From Candidatus Termititenax sp. (GTDB taxonomy: Bacteria > Margulisbacteria > Riflemargulisbacteria > GWF2-35-9 > DYQY01), in contig DYQY01000004.1 of the NCBI GenBank assembly GCA_020719045.1, forward strand, positions 88,447 through 152,446: 64,000 nt of DNA, written 5' to 3'. The notes under the pieces are model-generated. The model had not been told where the DNA came from. It was given only the letters and a program-made list of their open reading frames with translations, and did no database searches. This document shows positions 2,063 to 54,962 of this stretch, piece after piece (position 1 is the first letter of the stretch; every line of letters starts with the position of its first letter). The translations under genes were made by a program, and so were the position numbers.

Positions 2063-3355
2063 CTAAGAAAAAACACGTTTAAAAATCATATCTACATTCT
2101 TTTTGTAGATATTAAGATCAAAAACGTCATCGATTTCTTGCTCAGTTAAATTATTAGTTACTTTGCTATCAACTTTGATAACATCTCGAAACTTCAAACC
2201 ATTGTCCCTCGCCTTCATGGCATTTGCTTGAACAATTTGATATGCATCTTCTCTAGTAATCCCCTTATTCACCATAGTTAATAGTAATCGCTGAGAACAT
2301 ACTACTCCACCTAACAAGTCTAAATTCTTAGCTAAACTGTCCTCGTGTACTACCAAGTTCTCTAATACTGATTTAAGTGTAACAAGCATATGATCCATCA
2401 GCATGGTACTATCAGGGAAAATTATTCTCTCTGTTGAAGAATGCGAAATATCGCGCTCATGCCATAAACAAATATTTTCCATACTAACTAACATATTTCC
2501 ACGAATAACTCTTGCAAGACCTGTTAACTTCTCGCAGGTAATTGGATTACGCTTATGTGGCATCGCAGAACTACCCTTTTGGCCTTTTTTGAAACCTTCT
2601 TCCAGTTCATTGAACTCTGTCTTCTGTGAAGCACGAATCTCGGTTGCAATTTTTTCTATTGTTCCAGCCATCACAGCTAAAACAGACATAAACATGGCAT
2701 GCCTATCTCTCTGAATTATTTGAGTAGAAATATTTACCTGTTTAAGTCCTAGCTTCTTACAAACATATTCCTCAACATAAGGATCTATATTGGAATAATT
2801 TCCAACAGCCCCAGAAATCTGACCAACAGCAACTTCCTTAATTGCTGACTCAAATCTTCTAATATTCCTTCCAAACTCATCATACCAAAGAGCAAACTTT
2901 AAACCCAATGTCATTGGTTCAGCATGTACACCATGAGTTCTGCCCATCATCATAGAATCCTTATATTTATAAGCTAAGTCCTTTAATACAGGCAGTAGCT
3001 CCTTCATGTCCTGCAATATTATTTCAGCAGATTGTTTGATTAACACAGAAAATGCAGTATCAACTACATCAGAAGAAGTTAGTCCAAGATGTACATATCT
3101 TGATTCAGGACCAATATATTCAGCAACACAGGTAGTAAATGCAATTACATCGTGATTTGTAATCAGCTCTATCTCATTAATTCTCTCAACATTAATATCA
3201 GCCTTTTTTTTAATAATCTTTAAAGCTTCAGTTGGTATATTTCCTAATTTGTTATGAGCCTCACATGCAACTATCTCTACATCCAACCAAACTCTGAACT
3301 TATTTTCAAGAGACCAAATATCCTGCATAATTTTTCTCGAATATCTTTCAATCAT
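2063..3355 (-). CDS. purB: Adenylosuccinate lyase
   Basis: PurB splits SAICAR to AICAR plus fumarate and adenylosuccinate to AMP plus fumarate in purine synthesis; it is a cytosolic homotetramer of the fumarase/aspartase superfamily. The sequence shows the superfamily signature GSSAMPHKRNP, the upstream TSSD block (LTSSDVVDTAF) and the histidine region GRTHGVHAEPMTLG. At 430 residues it has the usual bacterial length. The start at ATG 3355 has a clear AAGGAG site. It is the last gene of an argS-ispG-purB run with short gaps. No key residue appears missing. Confidence 0.97.
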   Translation of the reverse strand: MIERYSRKIMQDIWSLENKFRVWLDVEIVACEAHNKLGNIPTEALKIIKKKADINVERINEIELITNHDVIAFTTCVAEYIGPESRYVHLGLTSSDVVDTAFSVLIKQSAEIILQDMKELLPVLKDLAYKYKDSMMMGRTHGVHAEPMTLGLKFALWYDEFGRNIRRFESAIKEVAVGQISGAVGNYSNIDPYVEEYVCKKLGLKQVNISTQIIQRDRHAMFMSVLAVMAGTIEKIATEIRASQKTEFNELEEGFKKGQKGSSAMPHKRNPITCEKLTGLARVIRGNMLVSMENICLWHERDISHSSTERIIFPDSTMLMDHMLVTLKSVLENLVVHEDSLAKNLDLLGGVVCSQRLLLTMVNKGITREDAYQIVQANAMKARDNGLKFRDVIKVDSKVTNNLTEQEIDDVFDLNIYKKNVDMIFKRVFS

Positions 3356-3375
3356 CTTTATCTCCTTCTATTCTT

Positions 3376-4416
3376 CTATAGTTTATCTGACTTAATTAGC
3401 TTCATCAACTCATCTACTAATGAATCGAATGGAACTGTCTTTATTTTATTTCCTCTTTCAAAAATCATACCTGCCTCTTTTGTACCACAAATACCATAAT
3501 CAGCATCCTCAGCTTCGCCTGGACCATTAACAATACAGCCCATAACCGCAACTTTCAAATGTCTTTTAACATCTTTGACTCGCTTATCAACTTCTGTTAC
3601 AAGCTTCTCTAAGTCTATCTCAGTTCTACCACAAGTTGGACAAGAAATAATCTCAACTCCCTCTTTAAGTAGTCCTAAAGAACGCAAAAGAACTTTAACT
3701 GGTTTAATCTCTTTTACTGGCTCACCGGTCAATGACATTCTTACAGTATCACCTAACCCGTCTACCAGTAATGCTCCGATTCCAGCTGATGATTTAATAA
3801 GCCCTGCCTCACCAAACCCAGATTCAGTAATACCAATATGTAGTGAATAATTATATTTCTTAGCAAAAAGCCTATTCATTTTAACAGTTGAAATAATGTC
3901 GGAAGATTTTAAAGATATAACAAGTTCTTGAAAATCTCTACTCTCGAAAAAGGAAATATACTCTTCTAAAACTTTCAAGGATAAACTTACCTTATCGTCG
4001 CTCTTACCAATAGAACCGTGGTTAACTCCTATCCTTATTGGAACAGAATACTCTTTAGCCTTAGTTATTATCTCTGTAAGCTTATCTTCCCCACCCATAT
4101 TCCCAGGGTTAATCCTAATCTTAGCTATACCTGACTCAATCGCTCCAATAGCTAACTTATAGTCAAAATGGATATCAGCAACAAGTGGAACCGGACTTGC
4201 CTTTACAATATCTGAAACGCAGTCAAGTGAACGCTTATCTGGAACAGCAATTCTAACTATTTCCGCTCCGGCTTTCTGCAGGTCTTTTATTTGATTAATT
4301 GTCTTAGCGACATCATAGGTAAAAGTATTAGTCATTGATTGAATAACTACCTTATTCTGTCCACCTATTTGAACGTTACCTACTTTAACTGCTTTTGTAT
4401 TTTCTCGTATAAACAT
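3376..4416 (-). CDS. ispG: 4-hydroxy-3-methylbut-2-enyl diphosphate synthase (IspG/GcpE)
   Basis: IspG reductively converts MEcPP to HMBPP in the MEP isoprenoid pathway, using a [4Fe-4S] cluster. The C-terminal part shows the cluster cysteines in SCPTCGR and MGCIVNGPGE, the latter with the conserved Glu; the N-terminal part reads as a TIM barrel (MTNTFTYDVAKTINQI, IRIGVNHGSIG). The length of about 346 residues fits the short two-domain bacterial form. The ORF track begins at GTG 4419, but ATG 4416 is better: it overlaps the argS stop as TGATG, implying translational coupling. Its presence says the host uses the MEP route. Confidence 0.96.
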   Translation of the reverse strand: MFIRENTKAVKVGNVQIGGQNKVVIQSMTNTFTYDVAKTINQIKDLQKAGAEIVRIAVPDKRSLDCVSDIVKASPVPLVADIHFDYKLAIGAIESGIAKIRINPGNMGGEDKLTEIITKAKEYSVPIRIGVNHGSIGKSDDKVSLSLKVLEEYISFFESRDFQELVISLKSSDIISTVKMNRLFAKKYNYSLHIGITESGFGEAGLIKSSAGIGALLVDGLGDTVRMSLTGEPVKEIKPVKVLLRSLGLLKEGVEIISCPTCGRTEIDLEKLVTEVDKRVKDVKRHLKVAVMGCIVNGPGEAEDADYGICGTKEAGMIFERGNKIKTVPFDSLVDELMKLIKSDKL

Positions 4417-5960
4417 CACATTTTCTCTGGAGCACTTACTCCTAATAAATCCAAACCTGTAGCTAATACTTTCTTTATTGCAGAAATTATAGCTAGTCTA
4501 TTTGCTGATAATTTTTTGTCATCTGAAATCACTTTGCATTGATGATAAAAAGAATGAAACATATTTGCTAATTCCATTAAATACGTTGCAATTCGATGTG
4601 GTTCTCTGTTTTGGACAGCAATCATTAGCTCATCCTCAAAATGGACAAGATATCTCATTAAACTATGTTCTATCTCTTCTACTACGATATCTTCATCAAG
4701 TTCTGCCTTAATTTGAGATGTATTCAAAATACTACAAATCCTAGCATGCGCATATTGAACATAAAAAACTGGATTATCTGATGTCTGCTTCTTTGCTAAC
4801 TCTAAATCAAAATCAAGGGCTGTATCTGCTTGCTTAGAAACCAAAAAGAACCTACCAGCGTCACAACCGATGTCTTCTATTACTTCTTCAAGTGTAATCA
4901 TTTCACCTGTTCTCTTACTCATTCTTACTTCTTCGCCATTTCTAAAAAGCGAAACAAGCTGACCAAGCAAAACTTCCAGCTCGACCTTGTCACCAAACAA
5001 AGAAAATAAGGCTGCTTTAACGCGTTTAATGTACCCATGATGGTCTGCGCCCCATATATTAATTAAATGATTGTATCCCCTATCCACTTTATTCTTATGA
5101 TATGCGATATCAGCAGCAAAATAAGTATAACTACCATCTGCTTTAATAAGTACCCTATCTTTATCATCGCCAAAGTCAGTTGAACGAAAAAATAATGCAC
5201 CCTCTTGCTCATAAGTAAGTCCTTTTTCTTTCATCACAGAAACAGCTGAATTAACAAAACCATTCTCGTGAAGTTCTTTCTTTTCACTAAACCATCTATC
5301 GAAAGTAACCTTAAATTTCCTCAAAATATCTGTCTGTTGCAGAAGAACAGCTTGGATTGGATCGGCTTCTTTTACTAAGTCCTTAACATATTCACCAGCA
5401 TACCCATCCTCAGGTAATGGCAGATTGTTTCTTCTTGCTTCAATCGATAGTAGCAAATTTGCTATCTGATTACCTGCATCATTAATATAAAACTCAGTAT
5501 CCACATCATAACCAACGTGCACCAAAATCCTTTTTAAGGTATCACCCATTGCAGCCCAACGACCATGTCCAATATGCAAAGGTCCTGTTGGATTTGCAGA
5601 AACATACTCTAAAAGGACTTTTTTATTACTTTCAACTAACTTTAAACTAAACCCATCATTACCAATATATTCAAAACAATAATTTGATTTTAGTTTAAAA
5701 TTAATAAACCCTCTTAAGGCAAATATCTCGAAGGCTCCACTCATTTTCTCTTCGAAAATCTTTACTATTTCAGGAGTTATCTGATCAGCAATAATCATTG
5801 GGGACAATTTCAGTGTTGCTGATAACTTAAAAGAGATATTTGTAGCATAATCTGCAATTTTCTTATCTTTAGGTATTTCAACTATCCATCCAGTTGCTTC
5901 ATAACCTTTTTGGACAATATACTCGCTAATTACTGCCTGAATTCTATCTATTATTCTCAA
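4416..5960 (-). CDS. argS: Arginine--tRNA ligase
   Basis: This class I synthetase charges tRNA-Arg. The HIGH motif is visible in GPLHIGHGRWAAMGD and the KMSKS equivalent in RMSKRTGEMITL, followed by the helical anticodon-binding DALR region to the C-terminus. At 514 residues it is slightly short for the family because the N-terminal additional domain is compact. The start is TTG 5960 after AAGGAGTAACT, with no better ATG. The stop overlaps the ispG start by one base. The SLH gene lies 21 bp upstream, so read-through from it is likely. Confidence 0.96.
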   Translation of the reverse strand: MRIIDRIQAVISEYIVQKGYEATGWIVEIPKDKKIADYATNISFKLSATLKLSPMIIADQITPEIVKIFEEKMSGAFEIFALRGFINFKLKSNYCFEYIGNDGFSLKLVESNKKVLLEYVSANPTGPLHIGHGRWAAMGDTLKRILVHVGYDVDTEFYINDAGNQIANLLLSIEARRNNLPLPEDGYAGEYVKDLVKEADPIQAVLLQQTDILRKFKVTFDRWFSEKKELHENGFVNSAVSVMKEKGLTYEQEGALFFRSTDFGDDKDRVLIKADGSYTYFAADIAYHKNKVDRGYNHLINIWGADHHGYIKRVKAALFSLFGDKVELEVLLGQLVSLFRNGEEVRMSKRTGEMITLEEVIEDIGCDAGRFFLVSKQADTALDFDLELAKKQTSDNPVFYVQYAHARICSILNTSQIKAELDEDIVVEEIEHSLMRYLVHFEDELMIAVQNREPHRIATYLMELANMFHSFYHQCKVISDDKKLSANRLAIISAIKKVLATGLDLLGVSAPEKM

Positions 5961-47205: not shown

Positions 47206-47905
47206 ACTTTAAAAAAGGTAAATAAAATTTCTTGAAAAAATACCAGCTACTCTGCAATGCTTGTTTCTTAAGTGATTTAGAAGAAAATGTACTGCCACCA
47301 CCTAAATGAATAAGCACAATACCTGGATGATAGTAATTCTTGTATCCTTTTCTAACTATCGTTTTACTTAGGTCAATGTCTTCATTGTAAAAAAAATAAT
47401 TTTCATCAAACCCACCAACCTCTAAATAAAGCTTCTTCCTTATTAGCATTGCTGCACCCGACAAAAAACTAACAACTCTTGGTTCCTTGCCTAAATATTT
47501 ATACCTTCCTAAAACACTCCCATAATACTGAACAGACCTGTCCTGATTAAGTAAACGAGGCCCAAGTATACCTATGTCCTTATTGCTCTCATAAAAACGA
47601 ACTAGTGGACTTAAAACATCAGTATTAATAACAGTGTCTGAATTAAGCAGAAACAAGTATTCTCCTAACGCTTCTTTTGCTCCTTGATTATTTGCTTTAG
47701 CAAAACCAACATTTTCCTCATTATCTATAAAGCTAATATTGGAATAGTTGTCCATGAACTCATCTTTATCAAACTTATTAGATGAAGCATTATCAACAAC
47801 AATAACTTCAAAACTTACAGCCTTGTTATACTCATAAAATGAATCCAAGCAAGTCTTTATAAGTTCAGGTGTATTGTAATGGACAATAATTACAGAAACT
47901 TTCAT
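47204..47905 (-). CDS. Family 2 glycosyltransferase (rhamnosyltransferase-like)
   Basis: The GT-A fold is indicated by VSVIIVHYNTPELIKTCLDSF, the VVDNASS block, a DxD-like LLNSDT and the C-terminal FFYNEDIDLSKTIVRKGYK. It probably transfers a sugar to an envelope polysaccharide at the cytoplasmic face. The ORF track begins at 47932; ATG 47905, overlapping the preceding stop as ATGA, is preferred. It is the last intact gene of the citrate synthase-aconitase-proS run. The stop touches a decayed HEPN gene, so the extreme C-terminus may have been altered. Confidence 0.88.
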   Translation of the reverse strand: MKVSVIIVHYNTPELIKTCLDSFYEYNKAVSFEVIVVDNASSNKFDKDEFMDNYSNISFIDNEENVGFAKANNQGAKEALGEYLFLLNSDTVINTDVLSPLVRFYESNKDIGILGPRLLNQDRSVQYYGSVLGRYKYLGKEPRVVSFLSGAAMLIRKKLYLEVGGFDENYFFYNEDIDLSKTIVRKGYKNYYHPGIVLIHLGGGSTFSSKSLKKQALQSSWYFFKKFYLPFLK

Positions 47906-48891
47906 GCGTCTTTTAACCTCTCCAGAAAACATTCTATTCGAATCTTTGTTCTCATGTCCAATTCTCCAGGAGCATCCCCCTCAATAGTTAAAACTGGAAC
48001 ACTTAATCTGCTCTTAAGAATAACATCATCTAACTGTCGATGGCAAAAAGCTTGCGCATAATGAATAATACCTTTTAGGTTCCGAAGCTTTATTTGCTTC
48101 TCTATCTCTACGATTCTTCCTTCAAGGTCATAAGGATAATTAAAGTTACTATACTCTTGAACAATATCCTCACTCTCACTTAGCATCGCAAAATCATTTT
48201 CTACTTCAAAATAAGATACTACAGTTGACTGTGATTCCAAGTAGCTAAAAAGATTACTAACAATAGTTGGCACTCCAACATAACCTATCTGAATTTTACT
48301 TAACTGCGGTTCACTTATTTCCGATAAACTAATTAAATCTTCCACCCTCTTAGCGTAACTTGCTAGGTTACTTCCAAAATCTGAAGAAGCTACCATTAAC
48401 TTCTGAAAGTCAGAAACATTAATATTATTCTTGGTATAAAAAAGCTTGTCAAGGACTACTAGCCTTTTTCTGATGACATCTAATTCCGCTTTAGCTTCCA
48501 TAGCTTGAGCATAACTAACTCCGAAATACTCTCCTAATTTATCTAACTCATAACGCAGTTTAAACGCATCTCTTCCAGCCGGATAGGCAAAAGCAACAAC
48601 GCTTAAGTTCGGAATAAAGTGTCTATACAAATTGATAAGGCCGTGGTTATTGCTACAATCACCTTCTGTAACAGCAATTAATGTATCAATCTCGCTTTGA
48701 TGCGTAACAACCGCACCCATTAACCCCTTAATCCAACTACAAGTATTTCGCGGAACACCATGCTTCTCTCCAGATTTTATGAAATCCTTGGAATCACCAA
48801 CGATAAAAAGATTATTCAAATCTACTGGAATATCACCAGCCGCCCAAATATACTCTTGAGGGATAGTGGTTGTAAAGGCTACTTTCCTCAT
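47902..48891 (-). CDS. 2-hydroxyacyl-CoA dehydratase D-component-like protein
   Basis: This belongs to the HgdB/FldC-like superfamily that carries [4Fe-4S] clusters for radical dehydration, or for CoA-ester or benzoyl-CoA-type reductions. Recognisable blocks are IPQEYIWAAGDIPVDL, EGDCSNNHGL, AFCHRQLDDVIL and LTIEGDAPGELDMRTKIR. Cysteines in NTCSW, GDCSN and AFCH are probable cluster ligands. Neither a partner subunit nor the ATP-dependent activator is adjacent, so it may act alone or be a repurposed member. It overlaps the transglycosylase gene upstream by 4 bp. Confidence 0.82.
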   Translation of the reverse strand: MRKVAFTTTIPQEYIWAAGDIPVDLNNLFIVGDSKDFIKSGEKHGVPRNTCSWIKGLMGAVVTHQSEIDTLIAVTEGDCSNNHGLINLYRHFIPNLSVVAFAYPAGRDAFKLRYELDKLGEYFGVSYAQAMEAKAELDVIRKRLVVLDKLFYTKNNINVSDFQKLMVASSDFGSNLASYAKRVEDLISLSEISEPQLSKIQIGYVGVPTIVSNLFSYLESQSTVVSYFEVENDFAMLSESEDIVQEYSNFNYPYDLEGRIVEIEKQIKLRNLKGIIHYAQAFCHRQLDDVILKSRLSVPVLTIEGDAPGELDMRTKIRIECFLERLKDA

Positions 48892-51229: not shown

Positions 51230-53149
51230 CTACTCCTTAAGTAAATTTAGTTTACCGCCAGCAAGTATTTGCTCTATTTCCCTATCTGAAAAACCAGCTA
51301 GTAATTCATACTTAGAACCTGTAGAACTCTCCATTACTACGATATCTTTCTTTATCTGCTCTCTAATGTTGTTAAAAGAAAAAACTTCCTCAACATTTAG
51401 CTTATCATAATCACTCTCTTGTTTAAAAACTAAAGGAATAATACCAAAGTTTATTAAGTTAGCACGATGAATTCTTTCAATAGACTTTACCACAACTACT
51501 TTAACACCAAGATACATAGGACAAATAGCAGCATGTTCTCTTGAGGAGCCTTGTCCGTAGCTTAGACCGGTAATAATTAAATTATCATAACCTTCTGATT
51601 TGTTCGCTTTACATTTATCAGCAAACTTTGGCTCAACATCATTAAAAACTGCTTGAGAGTACTTATCTATATTTGAACGGAACTTCAAGAATCTTCCAGC
51701 AGGCATAATATGGTCAGTTGTTATTTTATCTCCTACCTTAACTACTGCCTTTACCGTTATACTTTCAGCCAACTCTTTACTTATTGGAGGAGGACCAATA
51801 TTTGGACCCTTTAGTATCTCAACGCTGTTTCTTTGCTTTTCAGGCAAAGGATTAACAACTAATGAGTTGTTTACCAAAAACTTTGATGGCTGCTTGTAAT
51901 TCACTGTTTCTTTAAAAAACTCTGATGGGTCAGTAATTTTTCCTGTTAAGGCACAAGCAACTGCTGTTTCTGGACTCACTAAGTAAATACCAGCACTGTT
52001 TGTACCACTTCTGCCATAAAAATTACGATTATTCGTTCTAATACTTACTGCATCAGTTGCAGGAGATTGCCCCATACCGATACAAAAACCACAGCTCGAT
52101 TCCAAAACTCTTCCACCAGCTTCAACGATATTTTTCATGAGACCATTTTCAATCATCATTTCAAATACTTGCTTAGAGCCAGGAGCCACACCAAAGGATA
52201 CCTCCGTTGAAACCTGTTTACCTTTTAACAAAGTTGCAACTGTATACAAGTCCTTATACGAACTGTTTGTACAACTTCCTATTAATGCTTGATCAACCTT
52301 CATACCAGCGACCTCAGAAACCTCTTTAACATTATCTGGGGAATGAGGCAAAGCAATCATCGGCTTAAGAGAAGAAAGATTAATTACCAATTCTTTATCG
52401 TATACAGCGTCTTTATCTGCAATTAATTCTACCCAATCCTGTTCTCTGCCCTGCGCTCTTAAAAATTCTTTGGTTATTTCATCTGATGGGAAAATAGAAG
52501 TAGTTACGCCTAACTCAGCGCCCATATTGGTTATTGTTGCTCTTTCTGGCACAGACAAAGTCTTAACACCTGAGCCTGTATACTCAACGATGTATCCTAC
52601 ATTACCTTTTGTGGTAAGTATCTGTAATAACTTCAAAATTAAGTCTTTGGCAGTAACAAAAGGTGACAGGGTTCCTGTAAGTTCAACCTTCAGAACCTTT
52701 GGTCTAGGAACATAAAATGCTCCACCAGCTAAAGCAGTTGCAATGTCTAAACCACCTGCCCCAATAGCAATCATCCCTATTCCGCCGCCTGTTGGTGTGT
52801 GTGAGTCGGAACCCAAAAGAGTCTTGCCTGGCTTACCAAATGTCTCTAAATGTACTTGATGACAAATACCATTTCCAGCCTTAGAAAAGTACAAACCATA
52901 CTTCATCGCAATAGACTGCAAGTATCTGTGGTCATCGGCATTCTCAAACCCATCCTGGATAGTATTGTGGTCTATATAGCTAACAGAAAGTTCTGTAGCA
53001 ATTGTTTTTCTTCCAATAGCTTCAAACTCCAAATAAGCCATTGTGCCTGTAGCATCTTGGGTTAAAGTTTGGTCAATCTTAATCCCTATTTCTTGTTCTC
53101 CGGTATCATCGACAATATGTTTACTAATAATCTTTTCAACTAAATTCAT
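51230..53149 (-). CDS. Aconitate hydratase
   Basis: It interconverts citrate and isocitrate. Cluster cysteines are seen in IGSCTNSSYKDL and SSCGFCIGMG, along with GSDSHTPTGGGIG and the C-terminal swivel domain (KITTDHIMPAG, YGQGSSREHAA). At 639 residues it is the short single-chain form found in many anaerobes. It follows the citrate-synthase-like gene by 4 bp, which supports that enzyme's identity and an oxidative branch towards 2-oxoglutarate. Confidence 0.95.
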   Translation of the reverse strand: MNLVEKIISKHIVDDTGEQEIGIKIDQTLTQDATGTMAYLEFEAIGRKTIATELSVSYIDHNTIQDGFENADDHRYLQSIAMKYGLYFSKAGNGICHQVHLETFGKPGKTLLGSDSHTPTGGGIGMIAIGAGGLDIATALAGGAFYVPRPKVLKVELTGTLSPFVTAKDLILKLLQILTTKGNVGYIVEYTGSGVKTLSVPERATITNMGAELGVTTSIFPSDEITKEFLRAQGREQDWVELIADKDAVYDKELVINLSSLKPMIALPHSPDNVKEVSEVAGMKVDQALIGSCTNSSYKDLYTVATLLKGKQVSTEVSFGVAPGSKQVFEMMIENGLMKNIVEAGGRVLESSCGFCIGMGQSPATDAVSIRTNNRNFYGRSGTNSAGIYLVSPETAVACALTGKITDPSEFFKETVNYKQPSKFLVNNSLVVNPLPEKQRNSVEILKGPNIGPPPISKELAESITVKAVVKVGDKITTDHIMPAGRFLKFRSNIDKYSQAVFNDVEPKFADKCKANKSEGYDNLIITGLSYGQGSSREHAAICPMYLGVKVVVVKSIERIHRANLINFGIIPLVFKQESDYDKLNVEEVFSFNNIREQIKKDIVVMESSTGSKYELLAGFSDREIEQILAGGKLNLLKE

Positions 53150-53153
53150 CTTA

Positions 53154-54962
53154 CTAATCTACCTCGTTTGCAAATTCATCAAAATTAAAATCAATAGCAA
53201 GTATACCAATAATATGATCTGAATCATCAAAGATTGGCGTCGAAACGGTCATAGTTAAATTACCAGTTACCTTGGACATATATATCTCAGCAATATGTGT
53301 TTGCCCATCTTTCATTGGCTCTATAAACCACTCTCTATCAGAAAAGTCTTCATCAAGCATTTTTTCTTCATAGGCTTTTTGATCACACAGCTGCGTAATA
53401 TTCTTACCTATCTTTTTACCATCAATGTTTGTTATAGAAATAAGCTTCATTGCTATGTCTTTTTGTGCAAGCTCATTCAAAATAGGTTCAAAGTCGCTTG
53501 GTATAAGTGATTTAACTTCTGGCATCATTGATGTTTCTTCAATAATTTTCTCTGCTCGCTGAGATATCCTCTCCCTTAGTTCAATATATGTTGTATGAAC
53601 TAGCTCTGGGAAATAGTGTCTTACGGCTTTTTCCATTTCTTGATCAGAAATAGAAGTAATTCTTCCATGGTTATATTCTTCAACAATCCAATCATACACT
53701 TTAATAACCTTAGGATGCTTTTTAGTAAAACCTAAACTCTGAGCTTTTGGATAATTTTTAAAAATCCAGTGGATAACTCCTGCTGTTCCTGTTTTATCCG
53801 TTATACTAACTCCTGGTGCTCTATTTAAAAGAGAAACAGTATCGAAGACGTTGTAAATCTCTTCATTCTTAACCATTCCATCTGCGTGTATACCAGCCTT
53901 AGTTGTATTAAAATCATCACCTATAAAAGGATAATTTCTTGGGAATACATGTCCCAATTCTTTCTCGAAATATTCCTTTAATTCTGTAATAACCGTTGTG
54001 TCTATTCCCATATTATTTCCATATAAGCTTAGGTACTCGAAAATCATACCTTCAGTTGGACAGTTACCAGTTCTCTCTCCTAGACCAAACAACGCACAAT
54101 TTGCGCCTGCTACACCGTGTAACCATGCTTCTGTTGTATTTACTAAAACCTTATGAAAATCATTGTGTCCATGCCATTCTAGCCACTCTGAAGGAACTCC
54201 AGCATCATGCCTAAACGCATGACAAATCTTAGCAACGCCTCTTGGCGCAGTTGCTCCTGGATATGGGACACCATAACCCATCGTATCACAAAGCCTAATC
54301 TTAACTGGCATACCAGCTTGTTTGGACATTTCCATTAATTTTTGAGCAAGAGGTATAGAAAAACCATACAAGTCTGCTCTGGTAATATCTTCAAAATGAC
54401 ATCTTGGAATAATTCCATTTTCTAAAGAATGAGCAACAATATCAACATAGAAGTCGAAAGCTTGCTTCCTGTCCATTTTAAGCTTCATGTAAATATGATA
54501 GTCAGAAACACTTGTCAAAATACCTGTTTCTTTTAAATTAAAAGGCTTAAGCAACTCAAAATCACTTTTCTGTGCTCTTATCCAACCAGTAACCTCTGGA
54601 AACCTTAACCCAAGCTCAAGAACCTTCTCTAATGCTAACTTGTCTTTCTCAGAGTACATGAAAAACTCAGACTGCCTGATAATCCCTTTGTCTCCACTTA
54701 GCTTACTAAGCAAAACATAAATATCTACAATTTGTTTAACAGTAAAAGGCTCACGAGCCTGTTGTCCATCACGAAATGTTGTATCAGATATAAATACTTG
54801 AGTAGGGACATCGTAAGCAATAAGATGGTCATCAAAAACAATCTTTGGCACTTCTGTATAAGGGAAAATATCTCTATACAGCTCAGGCTCGGTCCTGTTC
54901 ACTAATGAGTAATCATTCTGTGTCTTTCTTAAGAAGTTATTATTTCCTTTTTCAAACTGCAT
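53154..54962 (-). CDS. Re-citrate synthase-like HMGL enzyme fused to a Cache-type sensor domain
   Basis: Residues about 50-370 are an HMGL TIM barrel (VFISDTTFRDGQQARE, PRCHFEDITRAD, WHGHNDFHKVLVNT, GLGERTGNCPTEG, KAGIHADG) like isopropylmalate, homocitrate and Re-citrate synthases. Adjacent aconitase and the lack of leu genes favour citrate formation from oxaloacetate and acetyl-CoA. Residues about 489-602 match a Cache/PDC sensor (ISITNIDGKKIGKN, DREWFIEPMKDGQTHI, VSTPIFDDSDHIIGILAIDF). Cache domains are usually extracytoplasmic, but here there is no signal or membrane helix, suggesting a cytosolic allosteric module. GGAGG precedes ATG. Confidence 0.85.
   Translation of the reverse strand: MQFEKGNNNFLRKTQNDYSLVNRTEPELYRDIFPYTEVPKIVFDDHLIAYDVPTQVFISDTTFRDGQQAREPFTVKQIVDIYVLLSKLSGDKGIIRQSEFFMYSEKDKLALEKVLELGLRFPEVTGWIRAQKSDFELLKPFNLKETGILTSVSDYHIYMKLKMDRKQAFDFYVDIVAHSLENGIIPRCHFEDITRADLYGFSIPLAQKLMEMSKQAGMPVKIRLCDTMGYGVPYPGATAPRGVAKICHAFRHDAGVPSEWLEWHGHNDFHKVLVNTTEAWLHGVAGANCALFGLGERTGNCPTEGMIFEYLSLYGNNMGIDTTVITELKEYFEKELGHVFPRNYPFIGDDFNTTKAGIHADGMVKNEEIYNVFDTVSLLNRAPGVSITDKTGTAGVIHWIFKNYPKAQSLGFTKKHPKVIKVYDWIVEEYNHGRITSISDQEMEKAVRHYFPELVHTTYIELRERISQRAEKIIEETSMMPEVKSLIPSDFEPILNELAQKDIAMKLISITNIDGKKIGKNITQLCDQKAYEEKMLDEDFSDREWFIEPMKDGQTHIAEIYMSKVTGNLTMTVSTPIFDDSDHIIGILAIDFNFDEFANEVD

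Follow-up and report, generated by a model that had tools for sequence, protein, structure and literature searches.

Gene organization and domain architecture

The window analysed here is a stretch of 64,000 nucleotides from contig DYQY01000004.1 of Candidatus Termititenax sp. (assembly GCA_020719045.1). An open reading frame of 602 codons on its minus strand (53154..54962) encodes a Re-citrate-synthase-like enzyme with a C-terminal Cache domain, identified by the reading frame, its HMGL-like and MCP-like_PDC_1 matches and an AlphaFold model. The original prediction, made from the sequence alone, had placed a Cache/PDC sensor domain without membrane anchor at 53154-53498. On the minus strand this segment was found to comprise the final 114 codons of the frame plus its stop, and the residues DREWFIEPMKDG...VSTPIFDDSDHIIGILAIDF quoted for the domain were present in the minus-strand product. 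A stop codon was present in the corresponding frame of the plus strand.

A Pfam-A search showed an HMGL-like domain (PF00682) with 89 bits against a cut-off of 29 at residues 56-329 (53976..54797, minus strand), corresponding to the catalytic TIM barrel, and an MCP-like_PDC_1 domain (PF22673) at residues 503-598 with 49.3 bits for the whole protein against a cut-off of 27 (E 7.6e-13). The isolated domain scored 53.5 bits with PF22673. The dCache_1 family (PF02743) scored 37.4 bits with the whole protein and 41.6 bits with the domain alone, below its cut-off of 45. By PF22673, Foldseek and VIA-align the Cache/PDC domain covered residues 489-598 (53169..53498, minus strand), with a helix at 488-501 followed by the mixed alpha/beta Cache fold. 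A long helix at residues 458-478 (53529..53591, minus strand), assigned with DSSP on the model, leads from the enzyme to the Cache and is part of the sole covalent link between them. The peak 19-residue hydropathy of the protein was 0.86 on the Kyte-Doolittle scale, so no membrane anchor was apparent. The domain therefore does not have the usual extracellular setting of a Cache between two membrane helices, but lies C-terminal to an enzyme of cytosolic type. No LeuA_dimer match was listed for the protein at E values up to 1, and a LeuA-type regulatory domain at the C-terminus was rejected on this ground. A cytosolic PAS domain in place of the Cache was also rejected, since PAS_6 (16.7 bits) and PAS_9 (14.6 bits) stayed below the cut-off of 27 and the fold matches were mainly to Cache domains.

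Catalytic motifs that were invariant over 78 alignment rows were FRDGQQ (residues 63-68), H264-G-H266-N-D, GER (295-297) and G299-N300. R64, D65, H264 and H266 were unchanged in all 78 rows; the Arg-Asp and His-x-His of the HMGL domain are presumably its metal-binding and catalytic signature. A weak Radical_SAM match was also seen in three of the 78 long forms (best 9.2e-5), which probably reflects a shared barrel pattern.

Directly downstream, after a gap of 4 bp and on the same strand, lies a gene for aconitate hydratase (51230..53149, minus strand; 639 residues), the next step of the pathway, which matched NCBIfam NF005558 with 900 bits against a cut-off of 612. Elsewhere in the window, a gene for a protein of the 2-hydroxyglutaryl-CoA dehydratase D-component family (89.7 bits) was found at 47902-48891 on the minus strand, flanked by a lytic-transglycosylase-like gene and a glycosyltransferase gene, both named by eye.

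Predicted structure and fold matches

The AlphaFold model of the full protein had a mean pLDDT of 91.4 and a pTM of 0.73. Residues 446-602 modelled separately gave a pLDDT of 90.3 and a pTM of 0.85 and showed a Cache fold with a long N-terminal helix. The top solved-structure match of the domain model was the sensor domain of KinD, which is extracellular and was solved with pyruvate (Foldseek E 3.9e-9; VIA-align Z 16.1, rmsd 3.7, 145 aligned residues). It was followed at Z 13-15 in VIA-align by WalK, McpA, CtaA, DctB, Tlp3, PctA/B/C and the citrate-binding CitA (Z 13.9), and the fold matches listed were mainly known Cache/PDC sensor domains. By sequence profile the nearest solved relatives were the ligand-binding domains of Tlp3, KinD (second), PctA and PctC. 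The protein has a single Cache module followed by the C-terminus, and not the two modules of a double Cache.

Overall, the predicted Cache pattern in the last 114 residues was confirmed by both the PF22673 score and the structure matches, and the fusion of this domain to a soluble, unanchored HMGL-type synthase beside an aconitase gene was found as described. The finding named beforehand as speaking against it, a LeuA or other regulatory fold at the C-terminus, was not obtained.

Assignment of the enzyme

Re-citrate synthase forms citrate from oxaloacetate and acetyl-CoA. In the window's own genome (99% complete), the Si-citrate synthase family PF00285 had no match, while NADP-isocitrate dehydrogenase was present with 719 bits (cut-off 490). 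A glutamate synthase match (1.2e-62) was also found in this genome; glutamate dehydrogenase was not evident there, with only a weak match to PF00208. Re-citrate synthase is the best assignment for the 602-residue protein because aconitase adjoins it, Si-citrate synthase is unmatched and NADP-isocitrate dehydrogenase is present, and the protein is accordingly read, from sequence, as a putative long-form Re-citrate synthase. The main alternative is another HMGL condensing enzyme, namely a homocitrate, citramalate or isopropylmalate synthase. The NCBIfam matches of the protein do fall in these families (best E 2.5e-35), and no characterised Re-citrate synthase sequence was found for alignment in the collections searched. 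However, all of these models scored far below their cut-offs (for example 122 of 517 and 119.5 of 463 bits), and the genome holds two further HMGL matches, with 26-27% identity to the 602-residue protein, that can fill such roles. Together with the three points of genome context given above, this makes another HMGL activity very unlikely.

Short Bacillota relatives showed 54-57% identity to the window's protein over 428 aligned residues. Two plasmid-borne relatives from Deinococcus with 37-39% identity are annotated as pyruvate carboxyltransferase. The tagged subunit of the Syntrophus aciditrophicus Re-citrate synthase reportedly has a mass of 72.9 kDa. Long forms that group with Syntrophales had calculated masses of 71.2-74.4 kDa (L017, L033, L045 and L048; 71.2-72.5 kDa for L045, L048 and L033), and L088 and L089, short forms from Bacillota, came to 51.7-53.8 kDa. 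By this comparison of masses, in which the reported value fits the long forms, the S. aciditrophicus enzyme is probably a Cache-bearing long form as well.

An aconitase-family match was found downstream of the Re-citrate synthase gene in 19 of 89 other loci, many of which have short flanks. Among 38 genomes of the window's phylum, the enzyme (E below 1e-50) was present in 15 and Si-citrate synthase in 12, with both in two genomes (G001 and G006). Thirteen of the 15 genomes with a strong enzyme match had no Si-citrate synthase, so that mutual exclusion of the Re and Si enzymes in the phylum is a tendency only. In genome G014 of this phylum the gene of a short enzyme (L092) was followed directly by an isocitrate-dehydrogenase-family gene. 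This locus (2070-5408) also has a malate-dehydrogenase-like gene, named by eye, in the same row and is an apparent citric-acid-cycle operon.

Distribution of long and short forms

The scan of bacterial genomes gave at least 80 loci; it was biased towards long forms, because one of its six search peptides came from the Cache domain. Five rows of the 90-row set were dropped (L080 and L083 at contig ends, L088-L090 as short forms), and 78 of the remaining 85 were aligned (A1 and A2) after removal of L008, L010, L013, L031, L041 and L087 as redundant and of L078 for an internal stop. PF00682 and PF22673 were both matched in 78/78 members of A1 (E ≤ 1e-3). The HMGL-Cache fusion is thus not due to chance. 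A chance match or frame error was ruled out by the presence of the Cache domain in every aligned relative, and a fusion made by the assembly by its recurrence in independent genomes of many phyla.

Phylum-wide draws of genomes were then queried with the full-length protein. In the Bacillota, matches were found in 15 of 149 genomes and none extended past residue 470, as these members end at about 450-470 residues and have no Cache domain. Of 148 genomes drawn from the phylum to which the Syntrophales genome G041 belongs, 73 were matched, and 71 of the 73 matches reached at least residue 595 while two were short. In the phylum that includes the Spirochaetes genome G045, 31 matches were obtained in 29 of 149 genomes, comprising 11 long and 20 short forms. 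Two Spirochaetes-phylum genomes each carried one short and one long form (L119 and L120 in G345, L121 and L122 in G381). Within the window's phylum, 13 of 15 strong matches reached at least residue 587; of the other two, L091 is cut by a contig end and L092 is truly short. G013 of this phylum grouped with Candidatus Termititenax persephonae with full support in the catalytic-part tree, from which the phylum is taken to be Margulisiibacteriota.

Since long matches span several of these draws, the long form is a widespread architecture of anaerobes and not a local or singular fusion. The original prediction had described the Cache as replacing the usual LeuA-type domain. The nearest short relatives (about 450-470 residues) stop where the Cache starts, and the domain is for this reason better described as added to a short enzyme. 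The catalytic-part tree, a quick tree of 29 short and 50 long hand-picked rows with the window's protein, requires seven changes between long and short forms. A single clade of short forms was not rejected (p-AU 0.266), and repeated loss of the Cache is therefore not claimed. In two short forms the same frame continued past the stop codon into a product that by eye is aconitase-like (L108) or a GntR-type regulator (L090).

Conservation of the predicted ligand pocket

Conservation was assessed on 94 long forms, keeping only rows matched to at least residue 590 (L001, L080, L083, L091, L093 and L094 were excluded). In a profile alignment, R126, W128, Y129, Y144 and D173 of the amino-acid sensor PctA, whose numbering was deduced from spacing and literature, corresponded to R543, W545, F546, Y561 and D591. 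The pattern [RK].W[FYW]...[YF]...D was fitted by 86 of the 94 long forms. On the minus strand, R543 is encoded at 53334..53336 (R in 87/94), W545-F546 at 53325..53330 (W in 94/94, F in 93/94), Y561 together with S563 at 53274..53282 (Y in 80 and F in 12 of 94; S in 94/94) and D591 at 53190..53192 (D in 94/94). W545, S563 and D591 thus showed some of the lowest variability in the domain, as did F546, T572 (93 of 94) and R543, and R543 was the sole near-invariant basic residue of the Cache. Counted from the R543 position, the Y position lay at +18 in 94/94 and the D position at +48 in 88/94. Mean entropy was 0.27 bits at the five motif positions compared with 1.84 bits across the domain. This mean was reached by none of 200,000 random sets of five positions, and by one of 200,000 when sets were drawn only from R, W, F, Y and D positions.

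According to the available text of PMC10104139, R126 of PctA touches the ligand carboxyl. The part of PMC11245519 that is available describes the D173 position as strictly conserved in the amino-acid and amine motifs and as occupied in a purine sensor by a G that takes no part in binding. In the alignment with KinD, R543 corresponded to R131, which is altered in the R131A entries 4jgq and 4jgr, and equivalents of W545 and D591 were absent. The joint occurrence of R543 and D591 favours an amino acid over a plain carboxylate, and the ligand of the Cache domain is, by these comparisons, probably an amino acid.

Several observations weigh against this reading. Y121 of PctA, which opens the six-position amino-acid motif given in the literature, corresponded to E538, which is variable and ranked 106 of 114 in conservation, and eight of the 94 long forms deviated at one or more motif positions. 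S563 and the following T-G (T566-G567) are common to KinD. Part of the motif (W and the aromatic residue) is shared by several Cache classes, as stated in the available portion of PMC11245519. With a pTM of 0.73 for the full-length model, how the Cache is positioned relative to the barrel is uncertain. Finally, the best structural and near-best sequence match is KinD, the structure solved with pyruvate, which keeps a plain carboxylate in consideration.

Intracellular Cache relatives on chemoreceptors

The window's genome contained a single MCP-like_PDC_1 match, which was the one in the Re-citrate-synthase-like enzyme. In 24 Syntrophales-phylum genomes, PF22673 gave 25 matches, of which 11 were at enzyme coordinates and one (L151) was on an enzyme fragment. 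Searched with a profile of the enzyme Cache, L161 (115.7 bits) and L164 (95.9 bits) stood out among the 13 remaining matches, the rest scoring at most 30.3 bits. A profile search of 148 genomes added L170, L171, L173 and L174, which all have MCPsignal and scored 93-123 bits, and the contig-end fragment L172 (119.9 bits). The Cache domains of L161 and L164 are C-terminal and lie behind MCPsignal, and are therefore considered cytosolic. The nearest relatives that were found for the Re-citrate synthase Cache were thus cytosolic C-terminal chemoreceptor Caches at 93-123 bits, against at most 30.3 bits for ordinary extracellular ones.

The pattern R.W[FY]...Y.S...D was present in all seven C-terminal non-enzyme Cache domains (L161, L164 and L170-L174), six of which were shown to occur with MCPsignal, and no membrane-like stretch was apparent in four of the seven (L161, L170, L171 and L173). 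For a receptor control 14 matches were taken; L151 proved to be the Re-citrate synthase fragment at a contig end, and nine of the other 13 were readable by alignment. The full motif was found in one of seven alignable extracellular-type receptors, with position and hydropathy taken as indicators of location. L175-L179, EAL-type proteins whose C-terminus resembles YkuI, scored 33-41 bits with the enzyme-Cache profile. These proteins carry K and Y/F at the positions of R543 and W545, and EAL was confirmed in L175 and L179.

In a quick Cache tree the Re-citrate synthase domains fell on one side of a branch and the 11 other cytosolic Caches on the other with an SH-aLRT of 91, a value that is not decisive. 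Cache distances tracked catalytic-part distances (Mantel r 0.61, with none of 999 permutations as high). A single fusion inherited jointly with the catalytic part would fit these sequence relations but is unproven. Plasmid searches with the Cache domain yielded little.

Upadhyay et al. 2016 (PMC4822843, available text) describe every Cache family other than Diacid_rec and YkuI_C as principally extracellular, and state that an extracellular Cache signals only via its C-terminal helix. The original prediction had stated that Cache domains normally sit outside the membrane; intracellular ones are rare but known, at chemoreceptor C-termini and, in that text, as YkuI_C and Diacid_rec.

Comparison with known systems

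The window's protein shares its HMGL catalytic fold, whose relatives include homocitrate and isopropylmalate synthases, with the Re-citrate synthase of the Clostridium kluyveri and Syntrophus aciditrophicus type, reportedly described by Li et al. in 2007 and Kim et al. in 2013. Unlike the window's protein, the Bacillota members stop before the Cache, and the available literature text makes no mention of a C-terminal sensor on this type of enzyme. A HMGL barrel in a general plan with a C-terminal regulatory domain is also found in the LeuA-type 2-isopropylmalate synthase, but there is no LeuA_dimer listed here and the sensor of the window's protein has the Cache fold. The cytosolic chemoreceptor Caches have the same C-terminal position and residue pattern, but are joined to MCPsignal and not to an enzyme. 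With the dCache_1AA sensors PctA and Tlp3 the five motif positions are shared, with spacing off by one to two residues at most, while the window's Cache differs in being single-module and cytosolic and in having the variable E538 in place of Y121. KinD, the sensor of a sporulation kinase, is the best fold match and shares the R131 position and the Y-S-x-x-T-G residues, but differs in the residues equivalent to W545 and D591. YkuI (EAL with YkuI_C) is likewise a protein with a cytosolic C-terminal Cache and matches the enzyme-Cache profile at 4.7e-4; the Caches of its type have, however, K and Y/F for R and W and are joined to an EAL domain.

Proposed mechanism and alternatives

We regard it as moderately likely that the cytosolic Cache domain is an allosteric ligand sensor of the putative Re-citrate synthase, most likely for an alpha-amino acid; ligand, coupling and sign, like the citrate synthase activity, are inferences. 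The sensing of a carboxylate or amino acid for control of entry into the citrate branch, as originally predicted, is plausible. A small carboxylate-bearing metabolite, most likely an alpha-amino acid, would bind the Cache pocket through R543 and D591, and foremost among the candidates would be glutamate or a related end product of the citrate - 2-oxoglutarate branch. The ligand-induced change would then pass to the catalytic barrel through the helix N-terminal of the Cache, as the enzyme ends with or shortly after the Cache and the signal must exit on the N-terminal side. Feedback inhibition would be the expected direction by analogy with LeuA or homocitrate synthase. On this reading, the most economical one, the sensor would control the enzyme that opens the citrate - 2-oxoglutarate - glutamate branch, being LeuA-like in plan and not in descent.

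Alternatively, the ligand could be a plain carboxylate from central metabolism, namely pyruvate, 2-oxoglutarate or citrate, by which the synthase would be informed of substrate availability or of surplus product. The rank of KinD among the matches, the alignment of its R131 with R543, the shared S563 and T566-G567 and the presence of CitA among the fold matches speak for it. Against it, D591 occurs in all 94 long forms, whereas the aligned position of KinD is not Asp, and a carboxylate-only pocket would not be expected to contain an acidic residue that never varies. For citrate, moreover, R543 as the only near-invariant basic residue would be few. Sensing of a plain carboxylate is consequently considered rather unlikely. 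It is also conceivable that the Cache is a structural or oligomerisation module with no ligand, since PAS/Cache domains are described as dimerisation domains too in the available text of PMC8694187, and since the existence of short relatives without it suggests that the Cache is dispensable for catalysis. Against such a scaffold, the pocket-motif positions W545, D591 and F546 are among the most conserved of the domain, and its nearest relatives found sit on chemoreceptors; we consider this explanation improbable.

Returning to an amino-acid sensor, a wider scheme can be put forward tentatively, at less than even likelihood. A distinct intracellular Cache family may read a cytosolic amino acid and serve two outputs, having been placed on chemoreceptor C-termini, where it would drive taxis by metabolism, and once on the C-terminus of Re-citrate synthase, where it would give feedback on carbon entry to glutamate synthesis and signal backwards through the N-terminal helix.

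Novelty and significance

Re-citrate synthase itself is known, but an intracellular Cache on this enzyme is apparently undescribed in the searchable literature; automatic domain databases may well list the HMGL-Cache architecture already. A full-text literature search, with most subscription papers outside its reach, returned no paper linking Re-citrate synthase with a Cache domain, and papers mentioning both citrate synthase and a Cache domain were unrelated by title. The full-text search also found no wording that joined 'cache domain' with cytoplasmic, intracellular, cytosolic or C-terminal, and the C-terminal type was not found in the available parts of the literature on Cache-bearing cytoplasmic chemoreceptors.

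Carbon enters the citric acid cycle through citrate synthase, and regulation of the Re-type enzyme of anaerobes seems unstudied in the searchable literature. If the proposed sensor role is true, many anaerobes, including sulfate reducers, syntrophs and spirochaetes, would share one allosteric switch. The Cache fold is described as predominant among extracellular sensors; it would then also regulate a metabolic enzyme allosterically, and the signal would exit from the end of the domain opposite to that used in receptors. Finally, the link to the C-terminal chemoreceptor Caches would supply those receptors with a candidate ligand.

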